Positions 3,252-54,102 of a stretch of DNA of 64,000 bases are shown here, piece by piece. The position numbers and the translations under genes are program-made. Within the stretch, counting starts at the first letter, position 1; every line of letters starts with the position of its first letter. Origin of the DNA: Shewanella woodyi ATCC 51908 (GTDB lineage: Bacteria > Pseudomonadota > Gammaproteobacteria > Enterobacterales > Shewanellaceae). The stretch covers positions 1,736,001 to 1,800,000 of the forward strand of contig NC_010506.1 in assembly GCF_000019525.1 (NCBI RefSeq), given 5' to 3'. The notes under the pieces were generated by a model. The model worked only from the letters and a program-made list of their open reading frames with translations. It made no database searches and was not told where the DNA came from.

Positions 3252-3914
3252 ATGTTTACCGGGATCATTGAATCAGTAGGTACACTGCGCAAAATTGAAC
3301 GTCGTGGTGATGATATTCGCCTTACCGTAGCCAGTGGAAAGTTAGACTTAGGTGATGTTCGCCTCGGTGACAGTATTGCCACTAATGGCGTGTGTCTGAC
3401 CGTTGTTGAGTGCATGAGTGATGGCTATGTGGCCGACATCTCAGCTGAAACGGTGAGTTTAACTGGTTTTGCTCACTATCAAGTTGGACGAAAGGTTAAC
3501 CTTGAGAAAGCGGTAACGCCAACGACTCGTCTTGGTGGACATATGGTCAGCGGTCATGTCGATGGTATCGCATCGGTTGATGACAGACAGCTTCGCGGTA
3601 AAGCGATTGAGTTCTGGTTAACCGCGCCAGCCGAGTTAGCTAGGTATATCGCTCATAAAGGCTCTATCACTATCGATGGGGTCAGTTTGACCGTCAATGA
3701 AGTACAAGATAACCGCTTTAGATTGACCATAGTGCCCCATACTGCTGGTGAAACCACCTTAGTGGATATGAAGGCCGGTGATACGGTAAACCTTGAGGTT
3801 GATCTTATTGCCCGTCATCTGGAGCGTTTAATGAGTTATGCCGGCGATAAAGCACAAACACCTGAGTCGAACGTGACCATGGATCTGCTCGCTCGTTCAG
3901 GTTTTTTACGCTAG
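3252..3914 (+). CDS. ribE: Riboflavin synthase alpha subunit
   Basis: Dismutates two molecules of 6,7-dimethyl-8-ribityllumazine into riboflavin and the pyrimidine precursor. Called ribC in E. coli and ribE in most other bacteria. The protein starts with the invariant MFTGIIE and contains two lumazine-binding barrels in tandem (about 1-95 and 96-200), seen as the repeated patterns SIATNGVCLTV and SITIDGVSLTV. Length 220 is typical. It sits three bases after ribD and 71 bases before ribBX. No FMN riboswitch was recognised in that short gap. Confidence 0.96.
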   Translation: MFTGIIESVGTLRKIERRGDDIRLTVASGKLDLGDVRLGDSIATNGVCLTVVECMSDGYVADISAETVSLTGFAHYQVGRKVNLEKAVTPTTRLGGHMVSGHVDGIASVDDRQLRGKAIEFWLTAPAELARYIAHKGSITIDGVSLTVNEVQDNRFRLTIVPHTAGETTLVDMKAGDTVNLEVDLIARHLERLMSYAGDKAQTPESNVTMDLLARSGFLR

Positions 3915-3985
3915 AAGATGGCGGTAAACTTAATACCGATTTACTTTAGTAAAATTACATTAGAATTAAACATTAAGGCCTTACA

Positions 3986-5089
3986 ATGTCGTTACACAGT
4001 ATAGAAGAGATCATCGAAGATATTCGCCTCGGTAAAATGGTTATCTTGATGGACGATGAAGATAGAGAGAATGAAGGCGATCTGATCATGGCGGCAGATA
4101 TGGTTACCGCTGAAGCGATTAACTTTATGGCCAAGTTTGGTCGTGGTTTAATTTGTCAGACCTTAACTCAGGCGCGCTGTCAGCAGTTAAACCTGCCCTT
4201 GATGGTGAGTGACAATAATGCGCAGTTCTCTACCAATTTCACGGTTTCTATTGAAGCCGCAGAGGGGGTAACCACTGGTATTTCGGCGCAAGATCGCGCT
4301 GTGACAGTACTTGCGGCAGTAGGTAAAGATGCCAAGCCAAGTGATATTGTTCAGCCAGGTCACATCTTTCCATTAATGGCGAAAGAGGGCGGGGTACTTA
4401 TCCGCGCAGGTCACACTGAAGCGGGTTGTGATTTAGCCCGTCTTGCTGGTTTTGAAGCCTCGTCGGTTATCGTTGAGATCCTCAATGATGATGGCACAAT
4501 GGCTCGTCGTCCTGATCTGGAGATCTTCGCTAAAGAGCATGGTCTTAAGATGGGCACGATTGCAGACCTTATTGAGTATCGTAATACCAAAGAGACCAAT
4601 GTGGTTCGTGAAGCTCAATGTAAGTTGCCAACCCGTTTTGGTGAGTTCGATATGTTGACCTTCAGAGACACTATCGATAACCAACTTCACTATGTATTGA
4701 TTAAAGGCGAAGTGAAAGAGGATGGCTTAGTTCGAGTACATCTGCAAAACACCTTTAATGATCTACTTCACTCTGAGCGTGATCAAGAGCGCAGCTGGCC
4801 ACTTGAGAAGGCGATGAAACGTATTGCTGATGAAGGTGGTGTACTAGTACTTCTTGGTCACCAAGAGCACAGCAGTGATATTCTAGCCAAAGTGAAAGCC
4901 TTTGAACTTGAAGATAAAGGTCAAGCGGTTGCGGCGGCTAAGTGGAAAGGAACCTCTAGCCAAGTGGGTGTGGGTTCTCAAATTTTAGCGAGTGTGGGCG
5001 TGACTAAGATGCGTCTGTTGAGCTCACCGAAGCGCTACCACTCTCTTTCAGGTTTCGGTTTAGAAGTGACAGAGTACATTTCTGAATAG
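3986..5089 (+). CDS. ribBX: RibBX: DHBP synthase with degenerate GTP cyclohydrolase II-like domain
   Basis: The N-terminal half (to about residue 200) is an intact 3,4-dihydroxy-2-butanone 4-phosphate synthase that supplies the four-carbon unit of riboflavin; the acidic loop [10 protein letters not shown] and the RAGHTEAG segment are present. The C-terminal half aligns with RibA by position but lacks the zinc-binding cysteine cluster: where RibA has a HSEC...CDCG pattern this protein has [10 protein letters not shown], and the later RQEGRGIG motif reads GHQEHSSD. It should therefore not make the GTP cyclohydrolase II reaction. This layout is the RibBX variant known from proteobacteria; automatic pipelines often label it ribBA. 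A real ribA must lie elsewhere. It is in the rib operon, 109 bases before ribH. Confidence 0.9.
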
Positions 5090-13032: not shown

Positions 13033-13959
13033 ATGGATATCACTAAAACCCAACTTAATATCAATCACCTGAAGATGATATGCACTATCGCTAAGTCTGA
13101 GACGGTTAAAGAGGCTGCTGAGTCTCTGTTTATCACCCAACCGGCACTCACTAACCGTATTCGAGAAGCCGAACGCCGCCTTAATACCAGTTTGTTTGTT
13201 CGCAGAGGACGTAAGCTCATTATCTCCAATGCTGGAAAGCGCCTGCTGCATTCTGCTAAGAAAATTTTAGAGGAGTTGGGACGAGCAGAATATGATATCG
13301 CGCGATTATCCGATGGTGTCGAGCAAGTGTTGAGGATAGGGCTGCCCCATTATGCTTCATTTAAATGGTTACCTGCAGTCACTAGTTACTTTGCTAAGGA
13401 GCTGCCAAATATTGAGCTGGAGATCACCGCTGCTGCTGCGAAACGTCCATTGAATGCGCTGTTTAATGGGGATGTAGATATCGCTATGATCTCAAGCTCT
13501 CAGCAGAAACTCTCACTAGATGAGAACCTCTACGAGTCCAGTTTTCTGTTGCAAGATGAGCTGATGGCTTGTCTCTCAAAAGATCATAAGAAGGCTGAAC
13601 GAAATCATCTAGTTGCAGAAGATTTTATTGATGAAACCTATATCACTAACTCGACCATTCCGGAGAAGGACAGGGAGTATGAACTCTTCTTTCAGCCGGA
13701 AAATGTTTTGCCAAGAAAGGTTCTGCAAGTTGGATTTAATGAAGCCATCCTTGAGCTCACCAAGGTCAACCTAGGTGTGACTATTATGTCGAAACATCTG
13801 GTCAGCCCCTATTTAGAAAATGGCATGATTAGAACGGTGCCGTTAGGGGAGCAGGGATTAAAAATTTACTGGCACCTTGTGTACCTCAAACAGGGAAAAA
13901 TAGCTAAACCTGCTAAGGTGCTAACCACGATTTTAAAGCAGTATGCTAATGAGAGTTAA
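13033..13959 (+). CDS. LysR family transcriptional regulator
   Basis: DNA-binding regulator of 308 residues. The N-terminal winged helix-turn-helix (about 9-68) reads LKMICTIAKSETVKEAAESLFITQPALTNRIREAERRL in pieces typical of the family; the rest is the periplasmic-binding-protein-like effector domain. It is transcribed away from the hydratase-mhpF-mhpE operon, the classical layout for a LysR activator of a catabolic operon. A T-N11-A dyad is present in the shared promoter region. The effector is not known; a pathway intermediate of tryptophan or 3-hydroxyanthranilate breakdown is the natural guess. Confidence 0.9.
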   Translation: MDITKTQLNINHLKMICTIAKSETVKEAAESLFITQPALTNRIREAERRLNTSLFVRRGRKLIISNAGKRLLHSAKKILEELGRAEYDIARLSDGVEQVLRIGLPHYASFKWLPAVTSYFAKELPNIELEITAAAAKRPLNALFNGDVDIAMISSSQQKLSLDENLYESSFLLQDELMACLSKDHKKAERNHLVAEDFIDETYITNSTIPEKDREYELFFQPENVLPRKVLQVGFNEAILELTKVNLGVTIMSKHLVSPYLENGMIRTVPLGEQGLKIYWHLVYLKQGKIAKPAKVLTTILKQYANES

Positions 13960-41166: not shown

Positions 41167-42249
41167 TTACTCCTCTTTGCTGGCACTCTTTTTACGTTTT
41201 CTTTTTTTCTTGGTGCGATCCGATTTAGGTGCAGTTGCTTTGAAGATACTGATGTTATGGAGCCCTGAGCCTTTCTTCATGGTTTCGCTCATATAGAAGT
41301 CAGCTTGATACTTTTTATCTTTCCATTTATACCAATCTTCGGTTTCAACGCCCTCATATTCGATGATTGTCACTGCCCCACCAGGCATTTTCCCTGCATT
41401 AGAGGTATGTCGCTCTATATGATCATGATTAATCCAAATACCTGGGTTATTCATTTTTACTATCACATCAACCCGTCCACCAGAGGGGACATAGACAACA
41501 TCCGCCCAATAGGGACTGTCTAGTGGTAAGCCATCTTTATGGGTCACTAATACATCATGACCATGCAGATGGTAAGCTGTCTCAATGGTAGCGGCATAGA
41601 GCCTGATCCTGAGCACATCTCCCTCTTTTACTCGTAATGGCTGAGTGCTAGGAAATGACTTACCGTTTATTGAGAAATAATCATTGAGCTCTTGTGGATG
41701 ACCGCCTTTTCCATATTCCATAGCAACTTCAGAGTTCCAACCAGATACCATCATGATCGCTTCTTTGGTGACAGTTTTTTCAATGTCGGTTGGATCTTTA
41801 GGGTCGATAATCATAGGCCCCCACATTCCTCTTAAACCGACATGTTCAGGCACATTCACATGGCAGTGATACCAGAGACTACCGGGCCTATCGACGATAA
41901 AGTCATAGACAAATGATTCCCCTGGTTCTATTGCTTTTTGGGTCACACCGGGAACACCATCCATCTTCCAGCTGTTGGTCTGTAATGTGCCATGCCAGTG
42001 GACAGTATGAGCCAATGTAGAGTTGTTATGCACGGTAATTTTTAACCTATCTCCCTCTTTAGCGCGGATTAATGGACCTGGAACTTGGCCATTAAAAGCC
42101 CACACCTTATTTGAAAATCCGGGAGTGACTTCAGCCACCATTTCATCAATTGTCATCTCAAACTCTAATGTCTGTGCAGCGACAATCTGACTGAAAAGCA
42201 GTAATGAAGATAAAATCCAAACTTTATAGGGTATTAAATTAATTCTCAT
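41167..42249 (-). CDS. Two-domain multicopper oxidase (NcgA/BCO-like)
   Basis: Exported blue copper oxidase, 360 residues with a signal peptide (cut after VAA, about residue 25). Domain 1 holds HTVHWHG (81-87) and YHCH...EH...GM (127-142), which supplies a type 1 copper site (Cys129, His136, Met142). Domain 2 has YHLHGHD and NHDHIERH, where the cysteine of a second type 1 site is replaced by aspartate. This is the two-domain layout with blue copper in domain 1 only. The C-terminal tail is strongly basic (TKKKRKRKKS). The ATG at 42249 is preceded by GGAG at seven bases. It is the last gene of the NirK-cytochrome cluster and overlaps the upstream cytochrome gene. Confidence 0.9.
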   Translation of the reverse strand: MRINLIPYKVWILSSLLLFSQIVAAQTLEFEMTIDEMVAEVTPGFSNKVWAFNGQVPGPLIRAKEGDRLKITVHNNSTLAHTVHWHGTLQTNSWKMDGVPGVTQKAIEPGESFVYDFIVDRPGSLWYHCHVNVPEHVGLRGMWGPMIIDPKDPTDIEKTVTKEAIMMVSGWNSEVAMEYGKGGHPQELNDYFSINGKSFPSTQPLRVKEGDVLRIRLYAATIETAYHLHGHDVLVTHKDGLPLDSPYWADVVYVPSGGRVDVIVKMNNPGIWINHDHIERHTSNAGKMPGGAVTIIEYEGVETEDWYKWKDKKYQADFYMSETMKKGSGLHNISIFKATAPKSDRTKKKRKRKKSASKEE

Positions 42250-42610
42250 CACTTAACTCCTCTTTCTGGCAACAAAGCGTTCTAACATAAACCACAAGCT
42301 CATTAATCTCCTCATCCGTCATATTGGCATCCCAATTCGGCATTAAATTCGACTTACTGACTGCCTTGCCTCCTTTTTTGATTGCGATAAAGATGTCTTC
42401 ATCGGTGCGTGAGATCATCTCCTTAGTGTCAGTGTGATCTTTAGGTAATACATCCATTGTTGCCGCATTGACTCCCCAACCGTCGCCCTCTTTTCCATGA
42501 CATTGAGTGCAATATGCTTGATATAACAGCTCTCCTTTTGTTGATTCTGCAGCCAACTGGCCACTTAGAGCTAGGCTTAGGAGAAGTAAAATACAGTGAA
42601 AGGTTCTCAT
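42239..42610 (-). CDS. Monoheme c-type cytochrome
   Basis: Periplasmic electron carrier of 123 residues with a signal peptide (cut near LAAES) and a class I heme site CTQCH (about 34-38). The distal methionine is probably in NLMPNWDANMTDEEINELV, as in other short cytochromes of this class. It overlaps its upstream neighbour by four bases (ATGA) and the multicopper oxidase gene by several bases, so these genes are translated together. A role as electron donor to the NirK-like or the multicopper protein is inferred from context. Confidence 0.9.
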   Translation of the reverse strand: MRTFHCILLLLSLALSGQLAAESTKGELLYQAYCTQCHGKEGDGWGVNAATMDVLPKDHTDTKEMISRTDEDIFIAIKKGGKAVSKSNLMPNWDANMTDEEINELVVYVRTLCCQKEELSDEN

Positions 42611-43308
42611 TCTGGTTGCTCCGTTATCAGGTTGAGGTAGTTCAATAACTTTTCGATAGAACTCTCATTTAAATGGCGGTTAGGCATGAGTGTTTTAGGA
42701 TCCCACTTTTCTGGATAGCGAATGTAGGATGAGATGAAGGCCGGTTGTAGGCGGTTCATTGAGCTGTATAGTTCAGGGGCTGAAACACCACCATAGCCAT
42801 CTTCACTCTGATGGCATGAACCACAGCCTTTAAATTTGTGAAAGTCTTTCTCACCTAGTGCCCGATTTGCTTTGCCTAAGGTGACACTTTCTAGTGCGAT
42901 AAGATCTGACTTGGGGGTCTGAGCCATTAAATATTCAGTGAGTTGTTTTGCTTGAACTGCATTAACGGCAATATGCTCAGTCAATTTACTCTCATCGATA
43001 GCATCACCATCTTCAGTCACAATGACATTGTCTAAAAAGAAGTGACCACCGGGACGAAGACGCTTTGGGTTAACTAACCAATTCTCTAGCCAGTCTGGAT
43101 TAAACTTATTGCCTGCGTAAAACAGTGTTGGCGCTCTCTCTTTTAGTCGTTGTGAAAGAGTGATATTGCTATTGTCTGAGATAGAGTGACAAGCTGCACA
43201 GGCCTCTTCATAAAGGTTTTTCCCTTCCTCTTGGGCACTTACTAAGGTACTAAACGAAAAGGGTATTAGTATCAAAATAGTGTTTAAAAATAGTGTCTGT
43301 ATTTTCAT
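42607..43308 (-). CDS. Diheme c-type cytochrome
   Basis: Exported cytochrome with two heme sites: CAACH at 37-41 and CGSCH about 135 residues later; the second has a likely methionine ligand in KTLMPNRHLNE. I place the start at the ATG at 43308 because it directly begins a normal signal peptide (MKIQTLFLNTILILIPF, cut after VSA); an ATG further upstream at 43365 would put 19 polar residues in front of it. Mature size about 208 residues. It is the second gene of the operon after the NirK-like gene. Confidence 0.88.
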   Translation of the reverse strand: MKIQTLFLNTILILIPFSFSTLVSAQEEGKNLYEEACAACHSISDNSNITLSQRLKERAPTLFYAGNKFNPDWLENWLVNPKRLRPGGHFFLDNVIVTEDGDAIDESKLTEHIAVNAVQAKQLTEYLMAQTPKSDLIALESVTLGKANRALGEKDFHKFKGCGSCHQSEDGYGGVSAPELYSSMNRLQPAFISSYIRYPEKWDPKTLMPNRHLNESSIEKLLNYLNLITEQPE

Positions 43309-43420
43309 GTTTTTTTCTACGTCGATAGGGCATACATGCCCTATGAATACGATTAAGTTATTCATTAATAGAGTTTAAAAATGTGGCAAGTAATGAGGTC
43401 GTTATTCTGCTGGAAAAGGG

Positions 43421-44365
43421 CTAGTTAATGACTAAATTAGTGCCTTTACCCATTTTAGGATCTGCGTCTGGCTTGTTCATTAGGACAGTGATTGCGCCAT
43501 TTAATGCAGACTTCATTCGATGATCAACAAGGGCATTATTTGTTGGGCGATCGCTAGGGCTAACGATGTCGGCGATAATCGCATGAGCAGGGGCAACATC
43601 AATGGTTTGAATACCATGCCGAATGTTTTTCGGGTGACCGTTATCCCAGACTTTATCCCAAATACCCGCAATAGGATGAAAAGCTGCATTTTCATTTATT
43701 TTAGCGTTAGCAAAATAGATACGTACCCGTTCACCAGGTTTAGATTCAAGTACTTGTGTCGCATTTTGGTCATGTACAGGGTCGTAATGAAACTGTTTTC
43801 CATTAATTAACACACCTTTCCATTTTTCGTTATTGGTGATCTCTGTTGGAGTGGCATTATTTTCAAATAGGTCGCCTTCAACAATGACATATTCGCGATC
43901 AGGTTTCGGAAAATCCTCTGTGTAGCCCTCCTTGGGATCTACAATAATAACGCCATACATTCCTCTAGATATATGCTCTGACATGGATTCAGAACCACAA
44001 TGGTAGATAAATACCCCAGGGTACTTGGCTTCAAATTTAAAATCTTTTCGTTTGCCTGGGCGCACACTTTCAAATTCATCTAACACATCGACTATAGCCG
44101 CGTGAAAGTCCATAGAGTGGGATTGTTTATTGCTCTTTTTATTGAGTAATGAAAAGTCAACAATATCGCCCTCAGTGACGCGCACAACGGGGCCCGGAAT
44201 GGTGCCACCGTAGGTCCACATATTGTGTTTAGTTCCTGCATTATCGACTAACATCTCTTTTTCAATCACAGGGATCTCAACTGTGATGACTTTTGCATTA
44301 GATGCGTAGCTACTTAACAAAGCTAAAGAGATAAATATTCCATATGCAATTTTTGATACTTTCAT
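43421..44365 (-). CDS. nirK: NirK-like copper nitrite reductase
   Basis: Two-domain cupredoxin of 314 residues with a signal peptide (cut after ASNA, about 24). Every copper ligand and catalytic residue of NirK can be placed: type 1 copper H83, C123, H131, M136; type 2 copper H88, H122, H282; catalytic D86 (HSMDFH) and H230 (FHPIAG). It should reduce nitrite to nitric oxide in the periplasm as a trimer. The loop between C123 and H131 (CGSESMSEH) lacks the prolines of classical NirK and is one residue shorter, so it is a divergent branch. First gene of a - strand operon with two cytochromes and a multicopper oxidase. No nor or nos gene lies in the window. Confidence 0.85.
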   Translation of the reverse strand: MKVSKIAYGIFISLALLSSYASNAKVITVEIPVIEKEMLVDNAGTKHNMWTYGGTIPGPVVRVTEGDIVDFSLLNKKSNKQSHSMDFHAAIVDVLDEFESVRPGKRKDFKFEAKYPGVFIYHCGSESMSEHISRGMYGVIIVDPKEGYTEDFPKPDREYVIVEGDLFENNATPTEITNNEKWKGVLINGKQFHYDPVHDQNATQVLESKPGERVRIYFANAKINENAAFHPIAGIWDKVWDNGHPKNIRHGIQTIDVAPAHAIIADIVSPSDRPTNNALVDHRMKSALNGAITVLMNKPDADPKMGKGTNLVIN

Positions 44366-44538
44366 TTCTACTCCTAATTATTTTGGTTTGATTTTTAATT
44401 CAATAATAACTAGAGCATGATTTGTGCCAGATGGTTTTTATTTTCTTTCCCGCATTGGAATAAGGTTTCTATCTGTTGGGTTTCTTATTTTTTAGTGTTT
44501 AATGTCATGTTGACTTTGTTATTTTGATACCTTGTATG

Positions 44539-45039
44539 TCATTCTGACATTGATTTAATTAGATTGGAGGGGCTGAGTTGGTCGTAGCAATACTCAATGA
44601 ACATCATTAAATATAAAAATACTGTCATAATGAAAGCTAGTTTTTCTCTTGTGGGTAGCTGCTTGTATTTCTTTGATGTTTTTGTTGTGGCTAAGATGAA
44701 TAGTACTAGTGAACCAATGTAGAAGAGTAAAGAGAAAGCGACTTCTGTTCCTAAAAGCTCTCCTGCTAACCTGAATAAGATATAGATGATTACTAATCCT
44801 TGACTCTCTTTTATTAATGTCTGGCTGAGCGGTGATAACAGAGGTGATGAGCTTAATTTGTTGGTACAGAAACAATAAAATAAAGTCGTGCTTACAAGTA
44901 ATAGTAAAGGTATTGATTTGTTTGGGGCTAAATATGATATTGTCAACAAGTAACTCGCCATAATGGCATTGGATATATTTGCTTCACTCTTAGTTATTTT
45001 CTTTATTTTACTCTTCAACATGATTATTAATGTTTCCAC
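44539..45039 (-). CDS. Small membrane protein next to the nirK-like cluster
   Basis: Unrecognised inner-membrane protein of about 166 residues with four or five hydrophobic segments separated by short lysine- or serine-rich loops. I chose the GTG at 45039, which has a good ribosome site (GGAG five bases upstream); an ATG six codons later at 45021 (MLKSKIKKITKSEANISN) is the alternative. A longer reading from a TTG at 45120 is not supported. It precedes the nirK-like gene on the same strand with a 173-base gap, so it may have its own promoter. AT-rich. Confidence 0.6.
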   Translation of the reverse strand: METLIIMLKSKIKKITKSEANISNAIMASYLLTISYLAPNKSIPLLLLVSTTLFYCFCTNKLSSSPLLSPLSQTLIKESQGLVIIYILFRLAGELLGTEVAFSLLFYIGSLVLFILATTKTSKKYKQLPTREKLAFIMTVFLYLMMFIEYCYDQLSPSNLIKSMSE

Positions 45040-45264
45040 GAAAACTCCAGAATAATTTGTAGCCATAGATTGCAATAGAGCAAAAGTCACGCCAAACCTT
45101 AATTGATAATGCAATTTCAACTAAGATGATTCTGAATCAGGTGTACAAGCAAATAGCATAATTATCGCTCTTTTTTCATTTCTAAACTAAACTTGAACTG
45201 TCACTTTTTTTAGAGGTGATAACTTTTTATTCGAACGTAGGATTTTGATAAATTGGACTTTTCG

Positions 45265-46239: not shown

Positions 46240-47877
46240 TTAAGCCATTCTCTGACTTGGTTTCCAGCGCAGTAGCTGTGTTGGCAGTTTAACCCCTTGG
46301 GAAGTGAGAGTATTAACACGGTTCAGGTAAGCTGCGCCATACATCAAGTGCTTAGCGACATCGACGGCATTACGGTCTTGATAGTTATCTAAGTAGCTAC
46401 CTTTAGCCCACTGATTAAAGGCGCCCAGTGCTGGACCTGCCCAGATCTGGTAATCCATCTCTCGACCCGCTTCACCTGAGTTTGACCAGCGACTAGAAAG
46501 CCCTAAATACCAGCGGAAAATCAGTGCCATCTTACGCTTAGGGTTGCCCTCGGCGCGCTCAATCTGCTTAGGATCGCGCTCGTTAAAGTGGGCTACTGTG
46601 CCTGCCCAGATCTCATCAAGGCTTGAGCGAAATACCTGCTTCTCCAGCTTTTCACGCTCATCAGACGGGATCGCTTCGATAGACTCATAGCGGGTGTAGA
46701 TCTCATAGAGCTTGTTAGCGCGCATCGGAAACAGGGTTCCACGTTTAACCACTTGCAGTTTTACGCCCATCTCGAACATATCTGCTGCTGGAGCCATGGT
46801 GACATCGGCCATCTCAGTCGTTGCCAGTAGTTTACGGGTATGTTCACTGGCGCCTGCTTCAACACAAGCCTGATTGACAGAGCCTGTAACTATGTAGGCT
46901 GCGCCCATATTGAATGTGGCTAATGCGGCGTCAGGTGTACCAACCCCGCCACCACAACCAACACGTATTGGCGTTTCATACTGGTACTTAGCTTGGATCT
47001 CATCTTTGAGAGCCAAAATAGTGGGCAGTAGAGTAACCAAAGGACGGTTATCGGTATGGCCGCCTGAATCTGCCTCGGCTGTAATATCGTCGGCCATAGG
47101 CACAAGCTGGGCAAGTTCCATCTGCTCAGCTGTGATAGAGCCATCATCCACAAGCTTTTGTAGCATCTTGACTGGCGCTGGCATCATGAACTTTTCAGCC
47201 ACTTCGGTGCGGCTCACCTTAGCAATCACCTTGTTACCGACAACCACATTACCCTGTACGTCACGGCTTAGGCCCGCTGCTCGGTAGTAGACTATTTGGG
47301 GGGTAAGTCCTAAGAAAGCGGATGCTTCAACGGTGCGAACCTTATGTTTAATAAATAGCTCGACGCTACCGCGTTCTAGCGCTGGCTCACTTGGGCTATG
47401 GATAAGGTTGAACATGTAAGGCCCGTTTGGTAGCGCCTTTTGAATGCGATTTATGGCTGCTTCAACGCGGCTTGGGATAAGGCCTGCTGCGCCAAATGAG
47501 CAAAGAATACCTGCTTGACCTAGGGCAATAACCAGCTCTTCAGATGAGATACCGTTCGCCATTGCACCTGCGTAGTAAGCGTACTTAACACCGTGGACGC
47601 GGCGGAAGTTACTGTCACCTAAACTTTCGGTACCAAGTGCAGGAGCAAAAGCACTGACCGGCTGGTTACCGTTGGCTGCTTGCGTAGAGGAACCTTCAGA
47701 GACGACATGGGCTTCTTGAGCTATCCCAATCCCTTTTTCACTGTGGTTAACGACAAAGCAGCCACGACTGAAGTCTTTCAGCTGCTGCTCCATCACATTC
47801 ACATCAAAGTTAATCTTACTATCTGCTACAGCCCACGGCCATGGAGAGAGTTGTTCACTAGTTGTCGTAGGATTCAT
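46240..47877 (-). CDS. pfaD: PUFA synthase subunit PfaD (enoyl reductase)
   Basis: Flavin-dependent enoyl reductase of the anaerobic-type polyunsaturated fatty acid synthase, acting in trans on acyl chains held by PfaA. It belongs to the nitronate monooxygenase-like TIM-barrel family (PfaD): ANGISSEELVIALGQAGILCSFGAAGLIP near residue 110, and the FMN phosphate-binding segment RVGCGGGVGTPDAALATFNMGAAYIVTGSVNQ about residues 300-331. 545 residues agrees with EPA producers. The gene follows pfaC after 369 bases, so it may have its own promoter; the gap holds a palindromic element. Confidence 0.96.
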   Translation of the reverse strand: MNPTTTSEQLSPWPWAVADSKINFDVNVMEQQLKDFSRGCFVVNHSEKGIGIAQEAHVVSEGSSTQAANGNQPVSAFAPALGTESLGDSNFRRVHGVKYAYYAGAMANGISSEELVIALGQAGILCSFGAAGLIPSRVEAAINRIQKALPNGPYMFNLIHSPSEPALERGSVELFIKHKVRTVEASAFLGLTPQIVYYRAAGLSRDVQGNVVVGNKVIAKVSRTEVAEKFMMPAPVKMLQKLVDDGSITAEQMELAQLVPMADDITAEADSGGHTDNRPLVTLLPTILALKDEIQAKYQYETPIRVGCGGGVGTPDAALATFNMGAAYIVTGSVNQACVEAGASEHTRKLLATTEMADVTMAPAADMFEMGVKLQVVKRGTLFPMRANKLYEIYTRYESIEAIPSDEREKLEKQVFRSSLDEIWAGTVAHFNERDPKQIERAEGNPKRKMALIFRWYLGLSSRWSNSGEAGREMDYQIWAGPALGAFNQWAKGSYLDNYQDRNAVDVAKHLMYGAAYLNRVNTLTSQGVKLPTQLLRWKPSQRMA

Positions 47878-48246
47878 TCTTGACCCTTAATAATTTATTT
47901 CCCCGTCACCCTAGACGCTACAGTTTTATTGTCGGCGCTTGTCGTTACCATCATGTATAAAGCATACACTCAGGTCTCTCCAAACTTGACGGCTTCACTG
48001 TAACGCCTATGGTTTAGGGGATATTTAAGTTAGAGGTTTTAAGTCTCAAACTTTTTTGTTATTTTTAGTTCAGTGAGTAGCGTTAATTGCTACTCACTCT
48101 TTTCTTAATTTTGTATATCAGTAAAACTTTTAATGGTTGAGAGCGCTGCTAGTTCGTCTTGATTCTAGGAGAAGGCGCGCAGCCTATGACTATAGGTGAG
48201 CACCTTCGACAACGAAGCGTGGCGACAATAGCAAGTTAATCAGCCA
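47878..48246 (-). other. pfaC-pfaD gap
   Basis: Non-coding gap inside the pfa operon. It contains a palindromic element next to the pfaC stop (48127-48252), a perfect hairpin (48072-48098) and a region that may carry a pfaD promoter (a TTGGAG and TTATAC pair 17 bases apart, near 47998 and 47965, is a weak candidate). No ORF is present. Confidence 0.45.
48072..48098 (+). repeat. Perfect 10-bp hairpin between pfaC and pfaD
   Basis: AGTGAGTAGC (48072-48081) pairs with GCTACTCACT (48089-48098) across a seven-base loop. A T-rich stretch follows on the + strand, the direction opposite to the pfa genes; on the pfa strand the downstream sequence is A-rich. It could therefore stop antisense transcription or fold in the pfa mRNA, but does not look like a pfaC terminator. 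Confidence 0.6.
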
Positions 48247-48252
48247 TTAAAG
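48127..48252. repeat. Imperfect long palindromic element at the 3' end of pfaC
   Basis: The ends are inverted: CTTTTAATGGTTGA (48127-48140) against the complement of TCAGCCATTAAAG (48240-48252). Inside, GCTAGTTCGTC...GAAGGCGC and the complement GCTATTGTCGC...GAAGGTGC pair with gaps, and the apex is CCTAT-N3-ATAGG. The right arm includes the last bases of pfaC, so the element supplies the stop codon. It probably is a repeated intergenic element of this genus; copy number unknown. Confidence 0.55.
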
Positions 48253-51200
48253 AGCTTCTTCGATGGAGATTGCGATATCAAAAACTTCGTAAATACGCAG
48301 CCCATCTTTACTTAGACTCGCATTACCTGTGATCACCTTCTTGCCATTTTCATCTTTGACCGAGGTGATGCTGACATCCATCGACATCTGCTTATTCAGT
48401 GGGTTGATCTGACCGCGATACTTCCACTTGATGTTCGATAATATTTGACCAAACTTTGGATTGTTAAATCCAGCGCCCAAGTCTTTACTGATGGCGTAAG
48501 CTTGCATGGTTTCGATAATTGCTTCAACACCTAAAGAGCCTGGCATTACCGGATCTTGGTGGAAGTGGAACTGGAAGAACCAGTCACTAGGGTCGATAGT
48601 GCGCTCAGCGTACAGGTAGCCTAATCCTTCAGTGCCGCCATTATCGACAATCTCAACCGAGTCGATAAAGTTCAGTTGACCACCTGCAAGACGGTAGTGT
48701 GGTTTACCCGCTGGGGCTGTGAAATGACGACCACTCTTATCGAGTAGGTTAACTTTAGTGTCTGCTGCAATTCCTTTAGCGACGTGCCAAGGTTGTGTCA
48801 CTTTACCGTTATCAAGGCCAAGTTGATCTTTAAGCGCATCACCTTTGAAGTAACCAAATACTGCAGTGCCTCGATAGAATGGCTCACCATCTGTGCTTAG
48901 CTCGAAGCTAAAGCTTTGGATAATGTTGGTGCCAGCCATAACGGTTGACAGTAGACGTGAGTCATTCTTGATAGTTTTACCACGCAGATCGACTTCGCGT
49001 AGTAGCTCACCGCTACCGTCTAAATTACGGAAGAACAGCTCAAGACCTGGGAAGCCAAGTGTGGTCCCCATGTAACCTGAGATGAAACCGTTTGGTTGCA
49101 GGGATATCTCCATCAAAATAGAGTAGGGCATCACAGCATGGTGACTATTTTTATCAAAGTACCAGGCATCGGTTGGCACTTCATATTCAGCGATACATGA
49201 AGATGGCTTCTTAAAGTCGCCGCGCTTGCCGTTGACTTCGATAACGCGTGTGGTGACCTGCAGATCGCCACAGGGAGTACGTGGTGGGATCATGCCGCGG
49301 TAGATTGAGAACTCAGGTCCGAAACAGTTTTCGATGTTACCTGTAGCAAACTCAAACATGTGATACGGCGTAAATGGCACGGTATCGGGTACACGGTTCG
49401 GGTAATCCGGTGTGATTGGCGCTTCAACGTGTGAAATCGGGATCACGCCCTTGTTTGGCGCTTTAGTCAGATCTGGAATTTGGGCCATTAATGGCGCGTT
49501 CGCTGATGCTGGCTGGTAAGCTTTAGGAGAAGAGCTCGCTGCGTGAGCCGACTCTTTATTAAGAGACGCTAGCGGATAGCGAGTACACTCATCTTCCTCT
49601 TTTATCATCACACCTAAGTTTTGGAAGTCCACTACTGGCTTGCCATTTAGGATGATATCGATATTTGCCTTAGCGTATGGACGTGGGCTAAAGCCTATTT
49701 CCGTCACTTCCATACGGTAGGTTAGCGTGCCTGATTGCGGCAGTACCTGTCCGCGACAACGGACCTGCTGTGATGCATTTTCAAGTGGCTGGAAGCGTCC
49801 ATTTTTGGTTTGAGTGTGCATGCCTAAATGCAACATAAAGAACTGCAACAACTGGCCACAGCCTTCAGCCATTAATGAGCCAGCCATCACTTGGTCGCCC
49901 TGGAAATGACATGGGAAGTACCAGTGATCTGGTTCTAACTGCTTATGACCTTCGATTAGTCCAAGTCCCCATGTGCCGCCATTACGCTCAACCTTGCTGA
50001 CCTGCTCAATCATCAGGAACTTTTCTGATGCGAAACACAGTGATGGTTGGGCTGGGCCTGCATGACTTGCACCGAAACAGCCTTCGATATCAGCCGTTAG
50101 CAGTTTATGGATGTCACCATAGCTAAAGCTAGTTTTAGGGCAATCTAAAATCGGGTTAAAGGTCTTCTTCACCGCTAAGCTGCGGGCTTTAATCTCATCT
50201 TCGGTGCGGATAACACCTTTACCGTCGGCAAGCTCCTCATCGGTGAAGAAGCCAGCACAGCCACCATCCATCTTAAGGATCATGGTATCGCCAACAAAAC
50301 ACTCATATGAGAAGAAGAACAGCAAGGTGTCGCCGTTGCGGGCGTAGTTGTTGATCTTAATATCATAACGCAGTGTATCGCCGCCACGTGGCAGATCGCC
50401 TAGGAAGGTGAGGGTACAATCTAATAGGCGGTAAACGCGCTCGCCCTTGTTCTCAAAATCGATACCTAGATAGCTGATGAGCATCAAGTCACACTGACCC
50501 GATTCAACCGCAACAGCCCACGGGATCTGGCCATCAACCAAGTAAGGAGCATCCAGAGGGATGTCATACTCAGTGGTCATTGAGCATTTTTTAAATTCGT
50601 TCATGGTCGCATCTAACTTAGTGACGCGAGACACCAGTAGGTAATCTGTGGTCGGTAGACGTACCCGGCGTGAGTAGCTGTCGATGATGGCGTAATCTGA
50701 GCCAAATACATTGGCGATATCACCTTCAGCGTATTCAACGAGATCGGCATAATTCCAGATACAGGGCTTAAGCTCAGGCGTCGGCGCAGTGTATGGCGGC
50801 ACGTTAGCGTGATCAGGTTTGAGTTCACTCTCTTGAGGTAAAGAGTGAGCAGCCACAGGCGATTTTTTAGCGAGTGTATTGGCGTATGAAACTGGTGCCG
50901 GTATTGCTGTGCTAGCTACCTGCTCTTGTCCAGTGACTTGAGCAAGTTGCTGCTTTAACAGCGCATCAGCCACTTTCATGCCGGCTGAGCGACTCTTTAA
51001 AAATGCTTGGTGAGCTTGTTGGGTCAGCTGCTGGTTTTGCTGAAAAGCGCTTAAGTCACCCGCAGAAACATCGAGAGTTTTGCTTGGCGCTTGTGCTGTT
51101 ATTGTTTTAGCTTGAGACGTCATAGGGTTACCTAATACTGGAGTAGGGTTCACTGAGGCGGCTTTTTCCTGCGTAGGCTCAGTAACTTGCTGTAATGCTG

Positions 51201-54102
51201 TGCGTGTAACCAAAGGCTTTTTGTATTTCACCACAGATGAAGTACTGCTCATGGCTAACTTATCTTGTATCGAGGCTAAGCTTGCTAGTGGAGCCTGTAG
51301 GATATGTTGATAGATATCTCGGCCCCCTAAAGTGACCTGCTTCAATAGCTGGTGCTTAGCATCCGATTTAAGTTCATGACTTAATCGATTAGTAAGGGCA
51401 CTGTTTTCACTTGCCGTTTGGCTGATTAACAGCTGCGATATTTGAGCTTCACTGCTATTGGCGACCAAAAGGCTACCAGCTTGCTGCTTCTGGGACTGAT
51501 TCTGAGTAGAGAGGTTAAGCAGGCCATGAAGTAGACTCGCCATTCCTGCTGCGGCAAAGCTATGACCCACACGCTCATCTGCACTTGTGATAATGGCGTT
51601 AGGGAACAGATCTGTAACAGGGGTATTTCGATGACTACCTGGTGCAATACTGGTTTCAACGACTTTGACTGTGTTGATATCTGCGCCAGCTTGAGTCAGC
51701 AAGTTATCGGTAACCAGATTGGCTTGTGTGGCGTTGCCAAAGGCTAGCGAATTGATAGTGCCGTATGATTTTTCTGGTTTAGCATCATTAGCTACAAGCA
51801 CGATTGCACCTGCACCTTCACCAACATTCCAGCTTCCACTTTCTTGAGCGGTAGAGTGTTGGGCCGCAGTTGCGTCGATAGAGACAGGTTCAACACTGTT
51901 TTTCAGTATCACCTGCTCAAAGCTACCAGAGAGGTCCACTGCTGCAATAACAACGGCATCTAAAGCTTCACTTACCATCATATTTTGCGCGACATCGATA
52001 CAGCGACTTACCGATTGCTCTGCGGCTGAGATGGTAAATGCCGGGCCATGGAAGTCCCACAAAGATGCGATTCGCGAAGCCATGATATTGCCGATAAAGC
52101 TGGTGTACTGGTTGAGCTTCGCCGCATCGAGCACGCTATCCATGGTGATAGCTTCTAATGCTTGATACTCATCTTCATCCAAGGTGACGCCAACAGCGGC
52201 TAGGCTCTCTTTAAGTTGAGTATGCAGGTTAACGCGGCCGCGGAATTGATGCAGTTCAAGCTCGGTTTCCATGGCAACTAACACTGCCACTTTCTGGCCC
52301 GGCTCTAGTTTGGCATCTCGTATCGCTTCATCGGTGACCTTCATCAGCATGAGCTGCTGTGAGATGAGACGGTCATCTTCATTTGGTGGCAGTTTAAAGC
52401 GTAGGAAATCAAGCTCAAAACTGTCGACATAGGCTCCTTTGGGAGCCGCGCTTAAACCAAATTCAGCTAATAGCTCTGAGTGTTGCTCTAGCCCTTTCCA
52501 GCGCTTTTTCGGCAAGGTGATAAAGCCATTGCTGTTTGAGGTAATCGCACTGTTAAGCTGATTAATACTGTTTAGGGGACCAAAGTGAGATGCAAGACCT
52601 GTGATCTTCATCGGCTGTGGTGTCACGGTTGGCTGAGTCTGCTTGACTGCGCCTGTAGCTTGAGCGCCAGCTGCGTCTTTTGGAGGTAAATAGCTCTCTA
52701 ATAACAGGTGAGCGTTACAGCCTCCGAAACCAAATACAGAAACGCCAGCGTGACGTTGAGCATTGCCTGTTTTAGCTGGCCAAGGTTGTACTTGATTTGG
52801 CAAGGTTGATGAGCCAAACAGATGATTAGGCGAGGATATCGCATCGCTAATATTGATACTTGGCGGCAGTGCACCCTCTTTCATGGCGAAAATCATCTTC
52901 ATGATCCCCGGCATGCCCGCAGCGGTTAACAGGTGGCCTAAGTTCGATTTAGCTGAGCCTATCAGCGGCGCCTGATTGCCAGCGAGCTTACCTTCAAAGA
53001 AGGTCTCCATTGAGGTAAGCTCTATTTTATCACCCAGTGGAGTCCCCGTTGCGTGACACTCAATGACCTCGATATCTTTAGGCTCAATGTCGCTGGCGGC
53101 ATAGGCTCGCTCAAACGCTTTAACCTGCCCTTTAGGGTTAGGGCTTAGTACAAACTGCCCCTTACCATCGTTAGATAAGCCAACACCACTCACGACCGCA
53201 TAGATATTATCATCATCACGCTCGGCATCATCTAAACGCTTTAGCACGAGTACGCCAGCACCTTCGCCAGCAAATAGCCCTTTGCTGTTACCATCAAAGG
53301 GGACAGAGATACCGTGATCTGGGTAGGCGTGAAAGATGGAGAAACCCATGTTAATAAAGAAGGGATCAGCCCCTGAGACTGCGCCTGCTAGCATCACATC
53401 GGCTTTGCCTGCACTTAAGTAGTCACAAGCAAGTTTCAGTGAGTAGACTGAGCTTGCACAAGCTGCATCGAGACTGAGCTGTGCGCCGCCTAAACCTAGC
53501 GCGTCTGCCACCACTTTTGAAGCGTTGTGGGCGATGGCGCCGTTAGCGTTATCTAAGGTGGCCTCACCTTGTGCTCGGCTCGTGTGGGCATTGGTTGGGT
53601 TTAGCTTAAAAGCACTTGCTCCGAGCTTATCTTGCAACGCCTTCTCAACGGCGCTGTGATAGATAGGCAGAAACAGATCGTTCGAGCGAGTCGTAGGAAA
53701 CGACAGCGCTCCCATGATGATACCTGTGCGCGCTAACGAAGCGCTACCTAAGTTAATGCCCGCATCCTGGAGTGCTTTTCGGCTGGTATCAAGCGCCCAA
53801 AGAAAGCTGTCATCTAACCCTGTTAAGCTTTCACTTGGAAGTTGATAGCCTGTTGCATCGAAGTGGAAGTTTTCGATGTAGCCGCCTTTATCACAATAAA
53901 AACGGTCAGATTGTCCCTGAACACCTTGGTAGTCGCAGCTGTTAGCCCCGAGCTTTTTATTGGTTAAGGTGGTTCGTGAGTCTCGTTTATCTAGCAGGTT
54001 TTGCCAAAACTCACCTGGTGTCTTAGCATCCGGGTAGAGTGTGGCAAGGCCGACAATGGCAATCTTGCTCTGTTTAGTGCTGTTTGAGTTTGAAGAAGAC
54101 AT
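48247..54102 (-). CDS. pfaC: PUFA synthase subunit PfaC (KS-CLF-DH-DH)
   Basis: Chain-extension and dehydratase subunit of the eicosapentaenoic-type PUFA synthase, 1951 residues. Order of domains: ketosynthase (about 10-470; active cysteine in LDAACASSVYSLK; histidines in ECHATGTPLGD and SNLGHLLTAAG), chain-length factor (about 540-900; the active cysteine position is occupied by Gln in SAAEQSVSRC), and two FabA-like dehydratases with HFQGDQVMAGS and HFHQDPVMPGS. The second has the textbook motif; in the first, Pro is replaced by Gln or Ala at two positions. The region 900-1130 is a flexible linker rich in Ala, Gln and Thr. The start overlaps the pfaB stop by one base (TAATG). Confidence 0.97.
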   Translation of the reverse strand: MSSSNSNSTKQSKIAIVGLATLYPDAKTPGEFWQNLLDKRDSRTTLTNKKLGANSCDYQGVQGQSDRFYCDKGGYIENFHFDATGYQLPSESLTGLDDSFLWALDTSRKALQDAGINLGSASLARTGIIMGALSFPTTRSNDLFLPIYHSAVEKALQDKLGASAFKLNPTNAHTSRAQGEATLDNANGAIAHNASKVVADALGLGGAQLSLDAACASSVYSLKLACDYLSAGKADVMLAGAVSGADPFFINMGFSIFHAYPDHGISVPFDGNSKGLFAGEGAGVLVLKRLDDAERDDDNIYAVVSGVGLSNDGKGQFVLSPNPKGQVKAFERAYAASDIEPKDIEVIECHATGTPLGDKIELTSMETFFEGKLAGNQAPLIGSAKSNLGHLLTAAGMPGIMKMIFAMKEGALPPSINISDAISSPNHLFGSSTLPNQVQPWPAKTGNAQRHAGVSVFGFGGCNAHLLLESYLPPKDAAGAQATGAVKQTQPTVTPQPMKITGLASHFGPLNSINQLNSAITSNSNGFITLPKKRWKGLEQHSELLAEFGLSAAPKGAYVDSFELDFLRFKLPPNEDDRLISQQLMLMKVTDEAIRDAKLEPGQKVAVLVAMETELELHQFRGRVNLHTQLKESLAAVGVTLDEDEYQALEAITMDSVLDAAKLNQYTSFIGNIMASRIASLWDFHGPAFTISAAEQSVSRCIDVAQNMMVSEALDAVVIAAVDLSGSFEQVILKNSVEPVSIDATAAQHSTAQESGSWNVGEGAGAIVLVANDAKPEKSYGTINSLAFGNATQANLVTDNLLTQAGADINTVKVVETSIAPGSHRNTPVTDLFPNAIITSADERVGHSFAAAGMASLLHGLLNLSTQNQSQKQQAGSLLVANSSEAQISQLLISQTASENSALTNRLSHELKSDAKHQLLKQVTLGGRDIYQHILQAPLASLASIQDKLAMSSTSSVVKYKKPLVTRTALQQVTEPTQEKAASVNPTPVLGNPMTSQAKTITAQAPSKTLDVSAGDLSAFQQNQQLTQQAHQAFLKSRSAGMKVADALLKQQLAQVTGQEQVASTAIPAPVSYANTLAKKSPVAAHSLPQESELKPDHANVPPYTAPTPELKPCIWNYADLVEYAEGDIANVFGSDYAIIDSYSRRVRLPTTDYLLVSRVTKLDATMNEFKKCSMTTEYDIPLDAPYLVDGQIPWAVAVESGQCDLMLISYLGIDFENKGERVYRLLDCTLTFLGDLPRGGDTLRYDIKINNYARNGDTLLFFFSYECFVGDTMILKMDGGCAGFFTDEELADGKGVIRTEDEIKARSLAVKKTFNPILDCPKTSFSYGDIHKLLTADIEGCFGASHAGPAQPSLCFASEKFLMIEQVSKVERNGGTWGLGLIEGHKQLEPDHWYFPCHFQGDQVMAGSLMAEGCGQLLQFFMLHLGMHTQTKNGRFQPLENASQQVRCRGQVLPQSGTLTYRMEVTEIGFSPRPYAKANIDIILNGKPVVDFQNLGVMIKEEDECTRYPLASLNKESAHAASSSPKAYQPASANAPLMAQIPDLTKAPNKGVIPISHVEAPITPDYPNRVPDTVPFTPYHMFEFATGNIENCFGPEFSIYRGMIPPRTPCGDLQVTTRVIEVNGKRGDFKKPSSCIAEYEVPTDAWYFDKNSHHAVMPYSILMEISLQPNGFISGYMGTTLGFPGLELFFRNLDGSGELLREVDLRGKTIKNDSRLLSTVMAGTNIIQSFSFELSTDGEPFYRGTAVFGYFKGDALKDQLGLDNGKVTQPWHVAKGIAADTKVNLLDKSGRHFTAPAGKPHYRLAGGQLNFIDSVEIVDNGGTEGLGYLYAERTIDPSDWFFQFHFHQDPVMPGSLGVEAIIETMQAYAISKDLGAGFNNPKFGQILSNIKWKYRGQINPLNKQMSMDVSITSVKDENGKKVITGNASLSKDGLRIYEVFDIAISIEEAL

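Follow-up and report, generated by a model that had tools for sequence, protein, structure and literature searches.

A cluster of four genes in Shewanella woodyi ATCC 51908 encodes a copper nitrite reductase (NirK), a diheme and a monoheme cytochrome c, and a two-domain multicopper oxidase (MCO). It lies at 41167-44365, on the - strand, of the 64,000-nucleotide stretch analyzed here (NC_010506.1, positions 1,736,001 to 1,800,000; hereafter the window). Judged by sequence comparison, the cluster is a genuine relative of ncgABC-nirK outside the nitrifiers, belonging to a branch in which nirK stands first and preceded by a layout of the NorR/sigma54 kind. The new aspect is the control region, in which a sigma54-like promoter and tandem GT-N7-AC sites stand before nirK; the DNA ahead of the operon looks as if it were built to switch on upon nitric oxide (NO). 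The cluster is probably an ncgABC-nirK module of NirK-first form under NorR control, induced by NO and serving NO and nitrite homeostasis. In transcription order, with lengths in amino acids (aa), the genes are as follows.

43421..44365, - strand: nirK-like gene for a periplasmic copper nitrite reductase (314 aa) of the kind associated with ncgABC
42607..43308, - strand: ncgB-like diheme cytochrome c, 233 aa from the ATG at 43308, with a signal peptide; the longest open reading frame (ORF) starts at 43365
42239..42610, - strand: ncgC-like monoheme cytochrome c, 123 aa, matching PF13442 at 2.7e-12
41167..42249, - strand: ncgA-like two-domain MCO, which we take to be of type C, 360 aa from the ATG at 42249 (GTG at 42252 in the ORF listing)

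All four ORFs are present where a preliminary description of this DNA had placed them. They are contiguous on one strand, and two pairs overlap: the monoheme and MCO genes and, by 4 nucleotides (nt), the diheme and monoheme genes. The start codons of the diheme and MCO genes were chosen by way of the signal peptide and the orthologues in the relative MTB7; by direct reading, without a predictor, each of the four proteins has an apparent signal peptide at its N-terminus. The two cytochromes are also as described, one with two CXXCH motifs (CAACH and CGSCH) and a Pfam cytochrome c match, the other with a single such motif (CTQCH), and PDB searches with both returned weak matches only.

The family identity of the cluster is clear from its NirK. 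The best solved match in the PDB is 4kns (331 bits), which we take to be the NirK of Nitrosomonas europaea, and the next solved NirK follows at 150 bits. The type-1 copper ligands (H83, C123, H131, and M136), the type-2 ligands (H88, H122, and H282), and the catalytic residues D86 and H230, with roles presumably as known from NirK structures, are invariant in 83 of 83 aligned family members, which bears out the earlier statement that all copper ligands are in place. A canonical denitrifier NirK is ruled out both by score and by tree position: the protein reaches 177 bits against TIGR02376, under the 296-bit cut-off of this equivalog model for canonical NirK, and in a rebuilt NirK tree the canonical Shewanella NirKs form one side of a branch with 100 SH-aLRT, the S. 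woodyi protein lying outside. An earlier NirK tree, which contained one wrong-strand outgroup ORF, places 41 of 42 NirK-first rows inside one supported group. Placed together with S. woodyi in that tree are MTB7, an Alteromonadaceae metagenome-assembled genome (MAG), two other gammaproteobacterial MAGs, and S. salipaludis, all within the 41-row group, and 4kns groups, on a long branch, with rows in which nirK comes last. On the rebuilt tree, the NirK-first order requires three changes.

For the MCO, the best solved matches are 2zwn (435 bits) and 3g5w (361 bits), the latter presumably the two-domain MCO of N. europaea, after which scores drop to 118. Direct reading finds the blue-copper residues Cys130, His137, and Met143 in domain 1 and a His-rich motif without such a Cys in domain 2, in keeping with the preliminary description, and 14 His, Cys, or Met columns, which we take to be the copper sites, are conserved in at least 70 of 71 sequences. 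In the MCO tree (from which, as from the final alignment, the cross-hit L097 was left out), 3g5w and 2zwn belong to a supported set with 28 other MCOs of NirK-last clusters. The proposed likeness to ncgABC-nirK is thus upheld by the match scores, by the split in the trees, and by the shared gene set. The structure 2zwn, deposited as a "two-domain type laccase," is 77% identical to the MCO of locus L085 and, given this identity and its place inside the NirK-last MCO group, is probably NcgA from an ncgABC-nirK cluster. In two proteins (P0214 and P0221) a monoheme-like cytochrome c domain is fused ahead of the MCO in one chain, and these natural fusions suggest that the monoheme cytochrome is the electron partner of the MCO.

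Among 129 Shewanella genomes, no more than 3 have this type of NirK; outside Shewanella, 1915 proteins match it at E 1e-50 or better, 120 of which were listed. The locus sample comprises the best 80 of 126 confirmed loci, ranked by likeness to the S. woodyi NirK; with the addition of the MTB7 locus and a duplicate of the S. salipaludis locus, it comes to 82 (L102 is the same operon as L024). All four genes lie on one strand in 73 of the 82, and in most of them a diheme homologue adjoins the monoheme gene. Gene order among the 80 is NirK-B-C-A in 40 (L026 and L070 among them have no matched MCO, and in L051 and L054 the MCO match is in two pieces), A-B-C-NirK in 29, B-C-A-NirK in 3, and other or cut in 8. 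The preliminary description was therefore right that nirK comes first in S. woodyi, but not in treating this order as unusual. NirK and MCO distances are correlated over 69 rows (Mantel r 0.868), as they are within the NirK-first set (0.774, 38 rows) and within the NirK-last set (0.883, 28 rows), and in each case 0 of 999 permutations gave a value as high. Judged by distance, the trees of NirK and MCO are in agreement; judged by linkage, the four genes keep together. In L057, an additional NirK-like gene (3658-4458, - strand; 35% identity) lies near the cluster, and two zetaproteobacterial loci, L097 and L099, have doubled nirK genes or doubled cytochrome pairs around the cluster.

The control region upstream of nirK contains four elements.

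44414..44429, - strand: sigma54 -24/-12 promoter-like site TGGCACAAATCATGCT, beginning 64 nt ahead of nirK
44504..44514, - strand: NorR-type GT-N7-AC site GTCAACATGAC, 85 nt upstream of the sigma54 site
44518..44528, - strand: degenerate middle site ATCAAAATAAC, an exact GT-N7-AC in L021 and L022, with matching relative position
44538..44548, - strand: NorR-type GT-N7-AC site GTCAGAATGAC, 119 nt upstream of the sigma54 site and overlapping the end of the ORF at 44539-45120

A similar sigma54 site stands at a comparable position in relatives, and the site at 44504..44514 keeps a spacing of 83-88 nt above it in L021, L022, and L024. The sigma54 motif alone was rejected as evidence (2 found in the window versus 0.5 expected), and the pattern modeled on the S. 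woodyi site has a single match in the genome, which shows uniqueness only, because the pattern was drawn from that site itself. The layout was defined as a sigma54 site with at least two GT-N7-AC sites at NorR-like spacing, 40-130 nt above it; a first form of the rule, with 60-130 nt, overlooked sites at 53-54. It is found in 24 of 42 NirK-first upstream regions (23 of 41 with the S. salipaludis operon taken once), by a rule that is partly fitted to the data, since its distance range and spacing list were widened after loci had been inspected. Left out of this count are L023 and L049, which have less than 220 nt of upstream sequence, and loci whose contig carries no DNA upstream. Shuffled sets give a mean of 0.01 and a maximum of 1, and the upstream regions of other ORFs in the same loci give 1 in 585. 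The sole control ORF with the layout encodes 346 aa downstream of the operon in L022 (near 11823, + strand); norR genes lie at 13231 and 15344. Across 25 regions, GT-N7-AC sites stand 53-54 nt above the sigma54 site in 18, 78-80 nt in 19, and 98-101 nt in 8, and the distances in the Shewanella group are 83-88 (4 regions), 97-98 (2), and 118-122 nt (5). Escherichia coli norV, the positive control, has the same layout with sites at 66, 90, and 111 nt. This layout is that of the known or predicted NorR targets norVW, norB, hmp, hcp, nnrS, and dnrN (PMC1274295; this and the papers cited below are represented by the portions of their text available to us).

The S. woodyi genome yields 19 matches to NF003451, of which 2 exceed the cut-off, giving two NorR proteins. 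One norR follows the gene for a 762-aa quinol NO reductase, and the other is divergent from nnrS and hmp. Sigma54 and GT-N7-AC sites are found ahead of norB and also between the second norR and a small unlisted ORF before nnrS; because like sites stand before norB and nnrS, we predict that the nirK operon is a third member of the NO-response set of S. woodyi. Among relatives, norR is divergent beside nirK at 19 of 40 NirK-first loci. Of 44 genomes whose loci are NirK-first, of the third order, or undetermined (L064 not covered), 25 encode a NorR over the cut-off; of the 35 genomes with the other loci, in which nirK comes after the cytochromes, none does. Among NirK-first loci with usable upstream sequence, NorR in the genome and the layout upstream of nirK occur together at 21, the layout only at 1, NorR only at 1, and neither at 16, and Fisher tests on this association take no account of kinship. 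The locus with the layout only, L021, has a fragment of a sigma54 activator, 43% like NorR2, that runs into the contig end, and the locus with NorR only, L025, has a sigma54 site plus one exact GT-N7-AC site. Residues R75, D96, D99, H111, C113, and D131 of NorR, which have a role in NO sensing, are invariant in 25 of 25 proteins, and the position of R81 in E. coli NorR is not conserved. The motif GAFTGA is found in 7 of these 25, with GAFSGA in 16 and GSFSGA in 2. We recognized no description of NorR control of a nirK/MCO operon among the literature matches listed, as far as their available text goes.

At 12 other NirK-first loci, an Rrf2-family gene lies beside or near the operon, upstream or downstream, and 9 have neither a norR nor an Rrf2 gene adjoining, several of these being at contig ends. 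Over all gene orders, 17 loci have an Rrf2 neighbor. The 17 proteins scanned (a second Rrf2 gene of L055 was left out) all pass the Rrf2 superfamily cut-off, and NsrR is the best model for 12. An NsrR-like site that beats at least 98% of shuffles is present at 11 of the 17 Rrf2-linked loci versus 0 of the 19 norR-linked loci; ahead of S. woodyi nirK, no NsrR site rises above shuffles (9 of 14 positions, with 91% of shuffles as high). The norR and Rrf2 neighbors are mutually exclusive except at L063. The neighboring regulator changes at least five times on the NirK tree, so the operon appears to have swapped one regulator for the other repeatedly.

In the mechanism that we propose, NO would enter the cell and be bound by NorR, which, on the tandem GT-N7-AC sites, would activate the sigma54 RNA polymerase. 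Transcription of nirK-ncgB-ncgC-ncgA would then supply the periplasm with four copper or heme proteins. There, NirK may exchange electrons by way of the two cytochromes with the O2-reducing MCO, NO and nitrite being held at tolerable levels, and the other NorR targets (quinol NO reductase, NnrS, and Hmp) would handle NO at the membrane and inside the cell. Detoxification, signaling, and respiration were open guesses in the preliminary description; the control region favors a response to NO or nitrite.

With regard to net direction, we lean slightly toward oxidation of NO to nitrite when oxygen is present, over nitrite reduction, the textbook activity of NirK. Tentatively, the module could be a periplasmic NO oxidase, in which NirK would run in reverse (NO + H2O -> nitrite + e-), the cytochromes would carry the electrons, and the MCO would deliver them to O2; the net reaction, equally tentative, would be 4 NO + O2 + 2 H2O -> 4 nitrite + 4 H+. 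NO oxidation with O2 via the MCO would employ every part of the operon, and support for this possibility comes from the NO-sensor layout, the cytochrome-MCO fusions, and the failure to detect NorB in 51 of 79 genomes. Support comes also from the published suggestion that the N. europaea NirK may oxidize NO (PMC10999283, PMC13170337). Two further reports point the same way. Nitrobacter winogradskyi consumed NO, and NO production from its nirK was unconfirmed (PMC5080386). Transcripts of N. europaea nirK were 4.2-fold down under oxygen limitation, which was ascribed to lower nitrite (PMC6967387). Counting against an NO oxidase is the published argument that ammonia-oxidizing bacteria without NirK still make nitrite, so that NirK cannot be the sole route (PMC13170337). 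The reported response of N. europaea nirK to nitrite but not NO (PMC6967387), the NorB of S. woodyi, the quinol norB upstream of nirK in L041, and the commonness of NO-activated nirK among denitrifiers count against it as well.

Plain denitrification, which we regard as doubtful, would have NirK reduce nitrite to NO via the two cytochromes at low oxygen and the quinol NorB reduce NO to N2O, the MCO having an accessory and equally doubtful role in copper handling or oxygen scavenging. Such a pathway fits the full retention of catalytic and copper residues in NirK and the presence, elsewhere on the S. woodyi chromosome, of a quinol NorB with NorR-type sites ahead. A quinol norB also lies directly upstream of nirK in L041 (5419-7557, + strand) and about 3 kb from the operon end in L044 (12414-14552, - strand; distance measured by window-type match). 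In a survey that joined two single-sequence queries over mostly incomplete MAGs, NorB was detected in 28 of 79 genomes. The same survey speaks on the other side, since NorB was not found in 51 of the 79 (20 of 44 and 31 of 35 by set; other NO reductases were not sought), only 4 of 35 genomes of the NirK-last set having it. Denitrification also does not require a closely co-evolving MCO of the oxidase type, and this NirK falls outside the canonical group. With the Sec-type model, the one NosZ model applied, the S. woodyi genome gives no NosZ over the cut-off, the sole match being NirK itself, far under it. Among the ORFs at 36-50 kb of the window, most of them scanned against Pfam, none was recognized as nor or nos, as the preliminary description had reported for the vicinity. 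In the literature, napAB, nirK, and norBC are listed as denitrification genes of S. woodyi (PMC10059138); a cNorB query on this genome matched only the quinol NorB. Together with an existing account of the module in Zetaproteobacteria (PMC3603346), that listing qualifies the earlier suggestion of a little-described module.

It is improbable that the S. woodyi layout is a relic or serves another sigma54 activator, the operon being under NO control in relatives and not here. The unlinked norR, the degenerate site, and the other sigma54 activators among the 19 NF003451 matches would fit such a history; the spacing kept in L021, L022, L024, and partly MTB7 speaks against it, as do the two NorR over the cut-off and the like sites before their neighbors. 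Very improbable, in our judgment, is a copper or phenolic oxidase operon without a nitrogen-oxide role, in which the MCO would be a laccase or cuprous oxidase and the NirK-like protein would serve copper homeostasis. The laccase label of 2zwn, the closest solved MCO, and sub-cut-off matches to the copper-resistance CopA model point that way. On the other hand, the promoter layout and the neighboring regulators point toward NO or nitrite sensing, the nitrite-site Asp and His of NirK are kept in 83 of 83 sequences, and in N. europaea the homologues have been linked to tolerance of nitrite (PMC5080386, PMC6967387).

Several observations weigh against an NO-controlled module for NO and nitrite homeostasis. 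In the flanks examined, nirK has no adjacent norR in S. woodyi, MTB7, or S. salipaludis, and only two of the three NorR-type sites of S. woodyi are exact. NorR is encoded in 103 of the 129 Shewanella genomes, this NirK in only 3. The match between NorR and layout is not independent of kinship, and, because only 3 usable independent pairs stand on supported branches, a sign test is without power. All 17 Rrf2 proteins stay below the NsrR equivalog cut-off, and for 5 of them the iron regulator RirA is the best model. NirK retains the residues required for nitrite reduction, a quinol NorB is encoded in S. woodyi, and in L041 such a gene lies directly upstream of nirK; since NO-activated nirK is usual in denitrifiers, NO control is compatible with nitrite respiration. 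Finally, nirK of N. europaea is reported to respond to nitrite and to neither NO nor O2 (PMC6967387).

The operon is flanked by a methyltransferase gene on the + strand and by the small unassigned ORF at 44539-45120 on the - strand. This ORF lies directly ahead of the nirK promoter, has no Pfam match, and is kept in MTB7 at 47% identity. Genes for PfaD and a protein of the polyunsaturated fatty acid synthase type, with FabA and ketosynthase domains (46240-54102, - strand), adjoin the operon with no relation to it seen. The operon has the same neighbors in S. woodyi and MTB7 and others in S. salipaludis; because they are common to the first two, the operon is not recent in the S. woodyi/MTB7 lineage. 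Recent arrival on a plasmid was rejected, as a plasmid search at E 1e-40 gave nothing nearer than three Azospirillum records, in which NirK is about 35% identical.

The role of ncgABC has been called not fully elucidated (PMC6967387), and the NO-oxidizing step of ammonia oxidation is still without an assigned enzyme (PMC13170337). That the same module occurs in other bacteria, with one or the other of two NO- or nitrite-linked regulators, detaches it from nitrification, links it to NO, and suggests that the four-gene set is a general device for NO and nitrite handling. The nirK of this clade is not to be counted as denitrification potential without further evidence. If the module were an NO oxidase, it would amount to a detoxifier, induced by NO and distributed among heterotrophs, and would provide the missing NO-to-nitrite enzyme of those ammonia oxidizers that bear the cluster. 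Such a function would also account for the co-evolution of a nitrite reductase with a copper protein of the oxidase type in one operon, for the frequency of NO- or nitrite-linked regulators as neighbors, and for the frequent failure to find NO reductases.

Compared with known systems, the S. woodyi NirK is homologous to the canonical NirK of other Shewanella, both matching the copper nitrite reductase model. The two differ in sequence: 14 other Shewanella genomes match at 29-38% identity, and an S. salipaludis assembly (G079) carries both kinds, its second copy being 28% identical to the S. woodyi protein. The ncgABC-nirK operon of N. europaea has the same four protein types and, if 4kns and 3g5w are assigned to that organism as above, supplies the nearest NirK structure and one of the two nearest MCO structures; both operons have an NO- or nitrite-linked regulator. 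S. woodyi is not known to be a nitrifier, and its gene order is nirK-B-C-A in place of ncgA-ncgB-ncgC-nirK, a variant that is no bar to homology. Whereas 4kns and 3g5w fall with the NirK-last groups, the S. woodyi operon belongs to the NirK-first group, with a NorR/sigma54 layout where N. europaea has an NsrR site. The ncg-nirK clusters of Nitrobacter and Zetaproteobacteria, which consist of the same kind of gene set, have been discussed in terms of nitrogen oxide consumption or detoxification, with neither NorR control nor a sigma54 promoter mentioned in the available text (PMC5080386, PMC3603346). A copper nitrite reductase operon is likewise not among the targets named for the NorR regulon (norVW, norB, hmp, nnrS, and hcp) in the available portion of PMC1274295, and the clustering of norR with its target is not seen in S. 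woodyi. The likeness to that regulon lies in the tandem GT-N7-AC sites that precede a sigma54 promoter by 50-125 nt, in the NorR encoded in the S. woodyi genome, and in the divergent norR of 19 relatives.

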